This document shows, piece by piece, positions 3,001 to 35,761 of a DNA stretch of 36,326 nucleotides. Origin of the DNA: Clostridia bacterium (lineage in GTDB: Bacteria > Bacillota > Clostridia > JAQVDB01). Both the position numbers and the translations under genes were made by a program. The stretch is from contig JAQVDB010000017.1 of assembly GCA_028698525.1 (NCBI GenBank), forward strand, positions 1 to 36,326, read 5' to 3'. Position 1 is the first letter of the stretch. Each line of letters begins with the position of its first letter. The notes under the pieces were generated by a model. The model was not told the origin of the DNA, ran no database searches, and was given only the letters and a program-made list of their open reading frames with translations.

Positions 3001-4214
3001 TCAGAAGGTTTCAATCCAGTTGTCTCTAAATCAAATATTATGAATTCGTCCTGTAATTGAGTGTTATCAGCATTGATAACTATATTTTCTCTGTCATTTA
3101 CTACATATGCTTCTACGCCATATAAGATTTTTATACCACACTTTTTGCCGGCATCAAAGGCTTCTGGGTATGCTTGGACAACTCCGTGATCTGTTACTGC
3201 AATTGCCGGATGTCCCATCTGTGCTGCTTTGTTTATCAAATTTTTAACTGGAGTTACTCCATCCATAGCGCTTAATTGTGTATGCGCATGTAATTCTACT
3301 CTCTTTTCCTCACAATCATCAGTTCTAACCTCTGGCTGAATCTTGATTATCTCATATGCAGTGATCACCAGATCTCTTTCATATTTATCATATTGGCAGT
3401 CTCCCTTGACTTTTACCCATGCTCCCTTTGATAATACATCAGTATTTTTTTTCTTCATAAAATATTTAATAGTTATAGAACTTTCAAAATCAGTAATATC
3501 AAATATTGCCAAAAATCTCCCACTTTTCAATTGCTTTAAGTCCAGTCTTATTATCTTTCCTTGACAGGATACAGTACCTGAATTAGAATCGATATCGCTA
3601 ATAGGTATAGTATCATCTTTTGTTAGCCTATTTTTTCTTGTTGTCTTTGGTTTTGATTTTTTTTGCTGATTCTGATTTAATGCAAATGCAACTAAATTTG
3701 CATCTTCTGCATTTTTTGCTTTTATATATTCTTCTGAATTAGCAGCAATAAAATTGTTTGATATCAATTTTATTGCTGCTTTTATCCCAAATTGTTCGTC
3801 AATGAGATTCTGCATGGATTGTTTCAACTTTTTTATATTTAACATTTGCAGGCTTGATTGGTCAGGAAGAATTATATATACACAATTATCTTTTATCTTA
3901 TAATAGCATTTTTTCGACCAACATTTAAATGAAGGTAATTTTTCTTCAGTATAAAATTTAATATTATTCCAGTATACTTTAAATAAATGTTCTAAACTAT
4001 CAAATTTGATATTATATCTTATTTTTATCTCAAAACTATCTAAAAAACTATACTTCTCTTTAATTCGCTTCTTTAGGGCATATACTTGATTGTAGTCAAT
4101 TAATTCATCTGATCTGATGTATAGTTTCCATGTTTTATCTTTTATATTCACTAAAACTTTTTGTATTTCAATATTAGAATTCATTCCCACAATATTTAAA
4201 AGACTTTTGTCCAT
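1..4214 (-). CDS. polC: DNA polymerase III PolC-type alpha subunit, 3' end off window
   Basis: Replicative DNA polymerase of low-GC Gram-positives, combining polymerase and proofreading exonuclease. I read one open frame of 1404 codons from the ATG at 4214 to the left edge. Order seen: N-terminal domain, OB-fold, PHP domain start (ELHAHTQLS, His near 309), inserted DnaQ-type exonuclease (DLETTG, Asp395; HHRAVDDA later), remaining PHP, a Cys4 zinc site (CPKC from 878, then CGIDLPDKHCPIC), and the polymerase palm with D933/D935 (DIDLNF) and D1058 (KLDILGHDD). The 125-residue spacing of the Asp pairs matches Bacillus PolC. The visible end reads LPESNQLSLF, the usual PolC terminus, but the next codon begins GG, so at least one glycine follows and the stop is not in view. 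Begins 5 bp after the glycosyltransferase gene stop. Identity is essentially certain. Confidence 0.97.
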   Translation of the reverse strand, partial: MDKSLLNIVGMNSNIEIQKVLVNIKDKTWKLYIRSDELIDYNQVYALKKRIKEKYSFLDSFEIKIRYNIKFDSLEHLFKVYWNNIKFYTEEKLPSFKCWSKKCYYKIKDNCVYIILPDQSSLQMLNIKKLKQSMQNLIDEQFGIKAAIKLISNNFIAANSEEYIKAKNAEDANLVAFALNQNQQKKSKPKTTRKNRLTKDDTIPISDIDSNSGTVSCQGKIIRLDLKQLKSGRFLAIFDITDFESSITIKYFMKKKNTDVLSKGAWVKVKGDCQYDKYERDLVITAYEIIKIQPEVRTDDCEEKRVELHAHTQLSAMDGVTPVKNLINKAAQMGHPAIAVTDHGVVQAYPEAFDAGKKCGIKILYGVEAYVVNDRENIVINADNTQLQDEFIIFDLETTGLKPSEDRIIEIGAVKVKNGEIVDEFSSMIDPGISIPAKITELTGIDDKMVKNAPKIEEILPNFLKFISDNPIVAHNASFDTAFIKKSCDMMGIAIKNPVIDTLALSRVLYPKLKTYKLNKVAEHLNIKLDNHHRAVDDAKATALIFLKCLKKLKNRGIKDISQINECFADEVNYAKVPSYHAVILVKNQEGLKNLYKLISLSHLKYYYRRPRIPKSIFNKYREGLIISTGCESGELYRALLNRWDMQKIEEIANFYDYFEIQPLGNNEFLIRDGKVKDVQELKKLNKKIVQLGDKFNKPVVATGDVHFVNKNDECFRRILMWGQGFEDANKQAPLYLRTTSEMLEEFSYLGEKTARKVVIDNTLKINQMIEDIEPIPDKLYPPIIEGADKEIKEMAICNAKKLYGDDLPETVKRRLDKELNSIISNGFAVLYLIAHKLVKKSLDDGYLVGSRGSVGSSFVATMCNITEVNPLPPHYSCPKCKYSDFDIDLNKYPCGIDLPDKHCPICGTGLKKDGHNIPFEVFLGFKGDKVPDIDLNFSGEYQPVAHKYTEELFGEGHVFRAGTIGTIATKTAFGFVKNYCEDNGLVIHNAEMNRLIDGCTGVKRTTGQHPGGIMVVPKNMDIHQFTPIQHPADDKRSSIITTHFDYHSISSRLVKLDILGHDDPTVIKMLEDLTGVDATKISLDDEQTMSIFSSTKALNIDEEDINSEVGTFGIPEFGTKFVRQMLVDTKPKTFAELVRISGLSHGTDVWLNNAQILIKNKTATLKEVICTRDDIMTYLIQKGMEPTLAFKIMEKVRKGKGIDQNEEKKMRQVEVPEWFIDSCKKIKYMFPKAHAVAYVTMAFRIAYFKVHYPEAFYATYFTVRADDFDADLISSGKQAVKNKIEELESANSKLTQKEKNLLTISEVALEMYQRGINMLKVDLYRSDAKKFLITEKGILPPINSLQGVGNNAAENIIKARAKGKFISIEDIVTRSRVSKTVIEVLKNHGCLKGLPESNQLSLF

Positions 4215-13085: not shown

Positions 13086-13117
13086 GAATATCTACCTCCT
13101 TTTATGCTAAAGATAAA

Positions 13118-13149
13118 GGGACGGCAATGAGTGATAACCCAACCATCCC
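13118..13149 (-). terminator. Weak hairpin between rpsB and tsf, possible attenuator
   Basis: Minus-strand GGGATGG pairs with CCGTCCC (seven pairs including one G-U) around an 18-nt loop, followed by TTTATCTTT. The T run is broken, so this looks like a processing or attenuation element rather than a full terminator. Confidence 0.4.
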
Positions 13150-13158
13150 CCTATAATA

Positions 13159-33302: not shown

Positions 33303-33500
33303 TTATTTATATATTTTTTTCTTATATTCTATTACTTTTTTGATTACTTCATCTATTTTTTCAGCAACTATGACTTTATTGCCAGTATTTAAGCTTATAA
33401 CAGTATCAGGGGTTTCTTCCATGAATTCTATCATCTCTGCATTGACAACAAATTCTTTTCCATTCAGTCTTTTTAATTTGATAATATCAATCACTTCCAT
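33303..33500 (-). CDS. flbD: FlbD/SwrD family flagellar protein
   Basis: Small (about 60-65 residue) protein of the FlbD family; Bacillus SwrD promotes flagellar power, probably through stators, which fits its place just before motA-motB. Family core seen: KLKRLNGKEFVVNAEMIEFMEETPDT, ISLNTGNKVIVAEKIDEVI. The ATG at 33500 has no ribosome site and sits 5 nt after a 14-bp inverted repeat. Other family members begin with M-I-(K/R/V)-L-x-RLNG, which would place the start at the ATT at 33485, 8 nt after GGAAG in GGAAGTGAT. So start is uncertain: ATG 33500 or AUU 33485. The product is otherwise normal. Confidence 0.85.
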   Translation of the reverse strand: MEVIDIIKLKRLNGKEFVVNAEMIEFMEETPDTVISLNTGNKVIVAEKIDEVIKKVIEYKKKIYK

Positions 33501-33504
33501 TTAT

Positions 33505-33544
33505 ATCGGAATACAAACTTGTTTTACAATGTTTGTATTCCGAT
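33505..33544. repeat. Perfect 14-bp inverted repeat between flgE and flbD
   Basis: Arms 33505-33518 and 33531-33544 are exact reverse complements (ATCGGAATACAAAC), and the loop TTGTTTTACAAT can add four more pairs with one bulge and a 3-nt loop. In the minus-strand transcript the hairpin starts 15 nt after the flgE stop and ends just before the flbD ATG, with no U-tract, so it is not a classical terminator. It may protect the flgE 3' end or shape flbD translation. Confidence 0.85.
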
Positions 33545-33559
33545 TCTTTCTAAAACAGA

Positions 33560-34873
33560 TTATCTTTTGAGGTTTACAAGCTCTTGAAGCATTTCATCAG
33601 AGGTCGTTATTATCCTTGAGTTGGCTTGGAATCCTCTTTGAGCAATTATCATATCTGTAAATTCACGTGAAAGATCCACATTGGACATCTCTAAAGCCTT
33701 TGTATTTAACACTCCTCTTCCATCCACACCTGGAACACCAACGATGGGATTCCCAGAGTTAGTAGAGTTCTGGAACATGTTTTCCCCTACTTTAGAAAGG
33801 CCTGATGGGTTAGAAAACCTAGCTAATGCAATAGTTCCAAAATGTTGCTGCATTCCATTAGTAAACATCCCAATCAATCTTCCCATAGCATCAATTTCCA
33901 CATTCTCTAGGTCTCCTGGAGGATAGCCTCCTATTTCATTTACCTTTACAGTAGTATTTGACGAAGTCTGTGTGAATTTATCAGGGGAAAAAAGTATATT
34001 TTCAGTATTAATAATTATATCCTCTGCTCCTGTTTTATCAGGATCAAGACTCAATACAATGTTAGGCACCTGTCCTTTATCACCTTGGAGTTTTCCGGTG
34101 GATCCATCAAAAACAAGATACCCATGTGCATCATCTATATTTACCCCTTCATATACAAAACTCTGTGTCGGTGTTCCTACTGCCAAATCAGGATCATCAC
34201 TGCTCACAGTCCATGACCATATATTGTTAGAAGTATCTACTTTTTTAAAATGAAAAGTTATCTGGTGCTGTCCTCCTAAACTATCATACACCAACACATC
34301 ATAATCCACCTCATTGTCCTTTGGCAAATCAGAATCCAGATTTCCCTCAAAGACTATCCTATCCGTGGCCTTCCCATTCATTCTTATGTTAGTCATGTTT
34401 ATTGCCTGTAAGGCACCTGATGTATCCACTACACCGTCTTCTCCCATCCAACCTAGAACATAGTGTCCGTTAGCTGTAGTCAGGTTGCCAAAACTGTCTT
34501 TTCTGAAATTTCCTGCCCGTGTATACTTTATGCTTGTCCCATCAGATACTACAAAAAATCCTTCCCCTTCTATAGCTAGGTCTGTTGCAACATCAGTCCT
34601 CTGCACACTGGTGCCACCGTGTATAACATCAACGGAACCTGTGCTGACCCCTAGCCCAACTTGTTGAGGGTTTATTCCTCCCCGTCCCATTCTTCCTCCA
34701 GCCTGTGAAGGAGCAGCTGCTGGCTTTAACATTTGATTATACATCTCTTGAAAAGTTACCCTGCTGGACTTGTATGCTACAGTATTTACATTTGCAATGT
34801 TATTGCCTATGACATCCATCATCAGCTGATGGGCTCTAAGACCAGATACACCAGAAAACATAGATCTCATCAT
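33560..34873 (-). CDS. flgE: Flagellar hook protein FlgE
   Basis: Major hook subunit, exported before the filament. 437 residues. N-terminal rod-like signature MFSGVSGLRAHQLMMDVIGNNIANVNTVAYK; middle D1/D2 domains with LAIEGEGFFVVSDG and GNLTTANGHYVLGW; C-terminal LEMSNVDLSREFTDMIIAQRGFQANSRIITTSDEMLQELVN. It is considerably longer than Bacillus FlgE (264) and more like 400-residue hooks. GGAGG about 10 nt from ATG 34873 (tandem ATG). FlgF/FlgG-type proteins share both termini, but length and flgD neighbourhood support hook. Confidence 0.95.
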   Translation of the reverse strand: MMRSMFSGVSGLRAHQLMMDVIGNNIANVNTVAYKSSRVTFQEMYNQMLKPAAAPSQAGGRMGRGGINPQQVGLGVSTGSVDVIHGGTSVQRTDVATDLAIEGEGFFVVSDGTSIKYTRAGNFRKDSFGNLTTANGHYVLGWMGEDGVVDTSGALQAINMTNIRMNGKATDRIVFEGNLDSDLPKDNEVDYDVLVYDSLGGQHQITFHFKKVDTSNNIWSWTVSSDDPDLAVGTPTQSFVYEGVNIDDAHGYLVFDGSTGKLQGDKGQVPNIVLSLDPDKTGAEDIIINTENILFSPDKFTQTSSNTTVKVNEIGGYPPGDLENVEIDAMGRLIGMFTNGMQQHFGTIALARFSNPSGLSKVGENMFQNSTNSGNPIVGVPGVDGRGVLNTKALEMSNVDLSREFTDMIIAQRGFQANSRIITTSDEMLQELVNLKR

Positions 34874-34904
34874 AACAAAAATGCCTCCTTTTTTTGAACC
34901 GCTA

Positions 34905-34955
34905 AATTCCTTCGTTCATTCAGGAATTATCAGCCTCCTCAAAAGAGGTCCGGCT
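34905..34955 (-). promoter_or_regulatory. Two small stem-loops in the leader of flgE
   Basis: In the 80-bp gap before flgE, the first (34932-34955) pairs AGCC/GGCT and CCTC/GAGG across TTTT and contains the preceding stop codon; the second pairs AATTCC/GGAATT (34905-34910 with 34923-34928). No T-tract follows either. This is the longest gap inside the flagellar operon, and I see no convincing sigma-28 or sigma-A promoter in it. Confidence 0.4.
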
Positions 34956-35346
34956 AGACTATAACGGCTCCATCAATATTTGTAATAATATTTTCCTTTA
35001 AATTGTCTTTATCAATCACTGTTATTACAGTATGGTTTTTTACACTCACTATGAAAGCCTTATCCTGCATGATTATAAGTGAATCACTAACACCCTTGTT
35101 TTTCGCTTTATTTACCGCATTTTCTATCTTGTCTATATCGCTACGGGTTAACTTTATCTGTCTCATATTCATCCTTTCGATGGAATGCTTGGAAAACTTT
35201 ATCCCTTCTTTATTAGACGAAGATAATTGTTTTAATATGTCTTTAAATGATGTGTCAGCCGACTTGCTTTTATCTTTATAAGTTTTATGTATAAAAGTTT
35301 TCCCTGTAGTTATTATATTGGGTTTTATATATGTTTTATCATGCAT
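34954..35346 (-). CDS. TIGR02530-type flagellar operon protein
   Basis: 130 residues. Small protein found between flgD and flgE in Gram-positives with large fla operons. Seen: disordered, basic N-terminus to about residue 40, then KFSKHSIERMNMRQIKLTRSDIDKIENAVNKAKNKG and the C-terminal SLIIMQDKAFIVSVKNHTVITVID, which are the family's hallmarks. No signal peptide or membrane helix. Precise role unknown; presumed hook assembly. ATG 35346 (MHDKTYIKPN) is spaced about 8 nt from AGGGTGAT; the upstream ATG 35355 and GTG 35358 lie inside or next to this site. Overlaps flgD's end. Confidence 0.88.
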   Translation of the reverse strand: MHDKTYIKPNIITTGKTFIHKTYKDKSKSADTSFKDILKQLSSSNKEGIKFSKHSIERMNMRQIKLTRSDIDKIENAVNKAKNKGVSDSLIIMQDKAFIVSVKNHTVITVIDKDNLKENIITNIDGAVIV

Positions 35347-35761
35347 CGGACTCATCACCCTGATTTATCACTTGTTTTATATCTTCAACAGGGACATCTA
35401 CTCCGTCTACTTCCACATAATAATAACCATCATTGGTTATTTTAGCACTATTTACTATACCCTCAATCCTTATTAAAGCTCCATTATACGGGTCTTGTGT
35501 TTGGGCTACAATCTTTTTCCCTACCATACTCACCGCATAATTCATGTTGAAAGTATTGTTTAAGTTTTGTATCTGTTCTAATGTTGAAAACTGCGCCATC
35601 TGAGCTATAAACTCCCTATCCTCAATAGGGTTTAAAGGGTCTTGGTTTTTTAGTTGAGCGATTAAAAGTTTTAAAAAATCATCTTTCCCTAAAATATTTT
35701 TGTTGCCTTCTATTTTACTTGTTTGTTGAGTATATGAGTTGCTGATATTTGTTACATTCAT
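35339..35761 (-). CDS. flgD: Flagellar hook-capping (scaffold) protein FlgD
   Basis: Caps the growing hook and is needed for FlgE polymerisation. 140 residues with the chosen start, the same as the short Bacillus form that lacks the large C-terminal Ig/Tudor module. Seen: LGKDDFLKLLIAQLKNQDPLNP, EFIAQMAQFSTLEQIQNLN, and AVSMVGKKIVA. ATG 35761 follows AGGGGGTG with 6-nt spacing; GTG at 35770 is part of that site. Sits between fliK and the hook gene. Confidence 0.95.
   Translation of the reverse strand: MNVTNISNSYTQQTSKIEGNKNILGKDDFLKLLIAQLKNQDPLNPIEDREFIAQMAQFSTLEQIQNLNNTFNMNYAVSMVGKKIVAQTQDPYNGALIRIEGIVNSAKITNDGYYYVEVDGVDVPVEDIKQVINQGDESDA

Follow-up and report, generated by a model that had tools for sequence, protein, structure and literature searches.

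We analysed contig JAQVDB010000017.1 (assembly GCA_028698525.1) of Clostridia bacterium, a stretch of 36,326 nucleotides (nt) hereafter called the window, with a focus on the hairpin encoded between the flagellar hook protein gene flgE and the downstream gene flbD (Table 1). With a probability that we put at roughly 0.6 on sequence and comparative analysis, this intercistronic RNA hairpin closes a stable flgE message at its 3' end as a stabiliser or a processing boundary, so that flgE mRNA would outlive the message of the downstream stator and switch genes. The hairpin is kept at one junction across several phyla despite turnover of its sequence, which points to selection on the hook-gene mRNA itself and bears on how one very long operon yields very different amounts of flagellar parts.

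Genes were located by profile hidden Markov models and the best hairpin within 90 nt after each stop codon was scored against dinucleotide shuffles, with z < -3 as the threshold for a strong hairpin. In the class set, an evenly drawn sample of the window's class with one locus per new genus, a strong hairpin was found at the flgE-flbD junction in 41 out of 54 genera versus 8 out of 327 junctions elsewhere in those operons (Fisher p = 2e-35). When only gaps of 30-200 nt are counted, the numbers are 38/43 versus 4/129. The phylum set covers other classes of the phylum (the 30 best-scoring loci and 40 chosen to cover further families); here 41 of 63 flgE-flbD junctions carry a strong hairpin versus 5 of 227 other junctions (p = 3e-28). 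Among named loci, found with an alignment of the FlgE C-terminus, the flgE-flbD counts are 21/25 in Clostridia, 8/12 in Bacilli and 12/23 in Actinomycetota, and those for the other junctions are 1/155, 4/82 and 6/91, respectively. The genomes of the named loci overlap partly with the other sets, and the three locus sets are not fully independent phylogenetically. The hairpin of the relatives starts at a median of 11 nt after the flgE stop codon and ends at a median of 27 nt before flbD, and its arms and loops are unrelated in sequence between genera. An Acetivibrio locus (L053) is among those with the hairpin. In four loci of one family (L009, L010, L140, and L153) the stretch 3' of the flgE hairpin is itself conserved in sequence (TGTTGTTAYRTATAGG), possibly as a cleavage site or another signal.

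The preliminary description of the window had reported a perfect 14-bp inverted repeat with an extendable loop at this junction, and both statements hold. The arms are exact reverse complements, and the 12-nt spacer adds four apical pairs (TTGT/ACAA) that close an AAA loop atop the 14-bp stem. As flgE-flbD mRNA the element begins 15 nt past the flgE stop codon and folds with -21.3 to -25.4 kcal/mol (z -5 to -7), and 0 of 200 shuffles folded as well. Only two of the window's 39 gene 3' ends carry a strong hairpin, those of flgE (z -6.9) and rpsB (z -4.7). The rpsB-tsf hairpin, at about 13110-13155 on the minus strand, is the only other strong intercistronic one in the window and has no U-run directly 3' of its stem.

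Covarying arms in relatives had been proposed as a check, and this comparison gave positional conservation in the three locus sets together with compensatory changes within one genus (loci L008, L012, and L125-L133). In nine sequences of that genus 97.2% of the cells are paired and 21 cells show double changes, versus 0-1 when the pairing partners were slid; compensatory changes occur in 6 of the 17 pairs. One-sided changes that preserve pairing all exchange G-U or U-G with G-C or A-U, which favours an RNA of the coding strand over a palindrome acting as DNA. The arms are perfectly palindromic, as would be expected of an operator, part of a promoter, or a small mobile or repetitive element, but in the 2.18-Mb genome no further arm copies were found above the control match level, promoter-like matches equal those of shuffles, and the sequence differs between genera. 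The single copy and the sequence turnover largely refute such a DNA element, which we consider highly improbable. A dispersed repeat of the repetitive extragenic palindromic (REP) or miniature inverted-repeat transposable element (MITE) type was likewise rejected on the single-copy arms.

The preliminary description was also right that no U-tract follows the stem on the transcribed strand: the mRNA reads on as ATAAATGG. Among the relatives, 2 out of 54 have four or more consecutive T less than 5 nt from the stem, which is not above background (4.7%). Since the U-tract is missing across relatives, a stabiliser or processing element fits rather than a terminator, and a Rho-independent terminator was rejected for lack of the U-rich tract. 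A partial transcription terminator that lowers flbD, motA, motB, and later genes has a precedent in cellulolytic clostridia, where U-poor stem-loops after the 5' genes of ATP-binding cassette (ABC) operons terminate partially (PMC9045158), and under a loose rule 15 out of 111 hairpins have a T-run near the stem. Because this minority carries short U-runs, some hairpins may partly terminate; with the strict count at background and the window copy free of a T-run and not picked as terminator-like, partial termination is unlikely to be the main function. The T-runs counted under the loose rule nevertheless weigh against the stabilising role, as do three other observations: the covariation was measured in a genus other than the window's lineage, the compared set having no order-level relatives; an unbiased strand test over all hairpins, with 12 isolated G-U versus 7 A-C mismatches, favours neither strand clearly; and a strong hairpin is absent in 13 of the 54 genera (many with gaps <45 nt) and in 22 of the 63 other-class loci.

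If the hairpin does end a stable message, an endonuclease, probably either RNase Y or RNase III, would cut the long fla operon mRNA at or downstream of it, the downstream flbD-motA-motB-fliL segment would decay after the cut, and 3'-to-5' exonucleases would halt at the hairpin, leaving flgE represented more than the genes after it. The hook of each flagellum needs about 120 FlgE copies (PMC4032328). The hairpin could instead serve mainly as an RNase III substrate, with cleavage of the duplex parting flgE from the downstream message and possibly freeing a small RNA, and a median of 16 predicted pairs per hairpin is in keeping with this. Stems of this kind are short for full RNase III activity, however, which weighs against such a role, and a conserved small RNA is unlikely because arms and loops are unrelated between genera; we hold this alternative to be improbable. 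A CsrA site in the hairpin loop was rejected, as GGA occurs in only 2 of 111 loops.

Its position between a stop codon and the next start codon would also allow the hairpin to insulate translation, either by blocking re-initiation at flbD by ribosomes leaving flgE or by tuning flbD initiation, and in the window the flbD ATG at 33500 lies 4 nt from the stem. In the relatives, however, the stem usually ends far enough upstream to leave the flbD ribosome-binding site free, and in the window too that site falls outside the hairpin. Masking of the site was therefore rejected, and insulation in general appears rather improbable. The preliminary description gave a 59-nt gap, which is the distance from the flgE stop codon to this ATG, the sole upstream in-frame ATG of flbD; it has no ribosome-binding site. 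Position 1 of PF06289, the canonical FlbD N-terminus, corresponds to an ATT codon at 33485..33483, 8 nt past a good ribosome-binding site, and the real gap may therefore be 74 nt. Judged from the sequence, this ATT is the likely start of flbD, as a rare AUU start codon or as the product of an assembly error.

The flgE-flbD hairpin is an unusually widespread new case of an intercistronic stem-loop type that is already known. It has several features of the stem-loops in selective RNA processing and stabilization (SRPS): a stable intra-operonic stem-loop after the upstream gene, no or short poly(U), and a conserved position with compensatory changes. A processed 3' end at the stem and a more abundant or longer-lived upstream mRNA, the remaining mark of this type, would be expected. 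In Ruminiclostridium cellulolyticum, stem-loops without U-tracts lie at the 3' ends of stabilised operon segments (PMC4423207, PMC8219983, PMC10311766), direct cleavage close by, and shield the upstream cistron's 3' end (PMC4423207, PMC10311766). The predicted SRPS operons of this species include flagellar biosynthesis operon 1018, with its genes unnamed (PMC8219983). Like the SRPS stem-loops of cip-cel and other operons, the flgE hairpin lies within an operon, downstream of a gene required in excess, and has a stable stem with no or a short U-tail; those cases were validated by RNA data, whereas the evidence for the flgE hairpin is that its position and pairing are kept at one specific junction in several classes and phyla. 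In Escherichia coli, too, stabilised operon segments have U-less hairpins at their 3' ends, and the malE-malF structure and the hairpins of other differential-decay operons resemble the flgE hairpin in having no U-tract and in lying at the end of the cistron with the greater abundance (PMC5927463). These E. coli operons comprise other genes, and the E. coli flgE-flgF gap is only 19 nt. In Campylobacter jejuni a structure likewise lies just past the hook gene, in the RNase-processed flgE 3' region that gives rise to the small RNA CJnc230 (FlmE) (PMC11187230), but CJnc230 is a conserved small RNA downstream of flgE, while the flgE-flbD hairpin is not conserved in sequence and is followed by flbD. 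The earlier interpretation as a stabiliser or an RNase site is partly supported, by the positional conservation, the covariation, and the scarcity of U-runs in relatives.

A second RNA element, missed in the preliminary description like the likely ATT start of flbD, was found in the leader of flgE. Its covariance model, R1, draws on the window together with 31 loci of the class set and 18 of the phylum set. Upstream of flgE the gap shows mild but consistent structure (median z of about -1.2 to -1.4; p = 4e-10 and 7e-7). The leader consists of two hairpins. Hairpin 1 has the consensus NNGCY-GGA-CC..GG-A-RGCNN with invariant CC/GG (GCC-GGA-CC..GG-A-GGC in the window), and hairpin 2 has a conserved 12-nt loop of the form NGANYGANNGAN (TGAATGAACGAA in the window) and is followed by the flgE ribosome-binding site. 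Across the 50 sequences pairing holds in 93.6% of the cells, double changes are seen in 13 of the 15 pairs, and the 233 compensatory cells compare with a shuffle mean of 76 and a slid maximum of 64. R1 has a single significant match in the window's genome, and in the named loci the element ends at a median of 24 nt before flgE. No Rfam 15 family matches the 3' hairpin or the leader at curated gathering scores, and for the leader no match was found even with the E limit relaxed to 1-5, on the stretches searched at that setting. No earlier description of the flgE-flbD hairpin, the flgE leader, or the TIGR02530 protein encoded directly upstream was found in the openly accessible literature searched. 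On sequence evidence the leader is a new conserved RNA family.

The leader occurs once per genome and, together with TIGR02530, essentially one-to-one. Among 146 genomes of the class, R1 was found in 59 and TIGR02530 in 59; 58 have both, each occurs alone once, and 86 have neither. The genome with TIGR02530 and no R1 match (G112) has a divergent leader, and the R1 match without TIGR02530 (E = 0.0097, in G100) is no better than chance. Where the position is listed in these genomes, R1 directly follows the TIGR02530 gene. In the phylum set R1 is present at 28 of 29 TIGR02530-flgE loci and at none of 5 flgD-flgE loci. Within the 80 named loci R1 and TIGR02530 coincide in 45/45; no named loci were entered into R1, yet some are the same genomes as its input. 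The R1-bearing named loci include Riflebacteria, Zixibacteriota, and actinomycetote metagenome-assembled genomes, and in 26 of the 45 there is an overlap between hairpin 1 and the stop codon of TIGR02530. The 3' hairpin is commoner where TIGR02530 is present (54/76 versus 4/13, p = 0.009), but it is not tied to it, as many Actinomycetota have the hairpin and no leader.

Residues S56, H58, R62, G89, and T113 of TIGR02530 are invariant and R66 is nearly so. Its AlphaFold model (predicted local distance difference test score, pLDDT, 82) has a confident beta-alpha-alpha-beta-beta-beta core with pLDDT of about 90 or more. Weak DUF4258 matches (27 of 42 members, best E = 0.0024) and a weak best PDB match to the mRNA interferase YafQ (E = 0.22) hint at a possible RelE-like RNA-interacting fold. 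Given the co-occurrence with the leader, TIGR02530 is a candidate RNA-binding regulator of hook synthesis, and this widespread orphan flagellar family gains a first concrete hypothesis, that its partner RNA is encoded immediately 3' of its own gene. We tentatively propose, at somewhat less than even odds, that the hook cistron works as an RNA regulatory unit in its own right, in which TIGR02530 would bind the leader and adjust the translation or cleavage of flgE to hook assembly, and the 3' hairpin would define and stabilise the excised flgE message. If true, this would be the hook counterpart of flagellin control by CsrA-FliW. CsrA-FliW acts on flagellin mRNA (PMC6529632); the likeness is the proposed post-transcriptional control of a major flagellar subunit via its leader. 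The flgE system differs in that its leader is a two-hairpin RNA of a distinct kind, tied to another protein family, and binding by TIGR02530 is putative.

Table 1. Features of the hook gene region in the window.
Feature	Coordinates	Strand	Basis
5' arm of the hairpin in flgE-flbD mRNA (ATCGGAATACAAAC)	33531..33544	minus	sequence, folding
Inverted-repeat spacer: four further pairs, AAA loop, one bulged A	33519..33530	minus	folding
3' arm of the hairpin (GTTTGTATTCCGAT), then ATAAATGG, no U-run	33505..33518	minus	sequence, folding
flgE, gene of the 437-aa flagellar hook protein, stop codon 33560-33562	33560..34873	minus	
flbD (PF06289), in-frame ATG at 33500	33303..33500	minus	
Probable flbD ribosome-binding site (GGAAGTGAT), outside the hairpin	33490..33498	minus	read from sequence
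flgE leader RNA element (model R1), two hairpins	34899..34957	minus	covariance model, E 1e-11
flgE ribosome-binding site AGGAGG, just 3' of the leader element	34884..34889	minus	read from sequence
TIGR02530 / PF12611 protein, 134 aa, gene immediately 5' of the leader; stop codon and hairpin 1 overlap	34954..35358	minus	

Three further observations were made in the course of the analysis. Five Actinomycetota loci (L067, L074, L100, L102, and L109) have a strong GC-rich hairpin after fliL at the fliL-fliM junction, which is elsewhere without hairpins. Locus L119 has a high-GC flgE-flbD operon of actinobacterial type, although the title of its contig names Vibrio cholerae strain 35D; it is probably a mislabelled genome or contamination. 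In the window itself, another inverted repeat (3741-3780) sits within a long polC-like coding frame.
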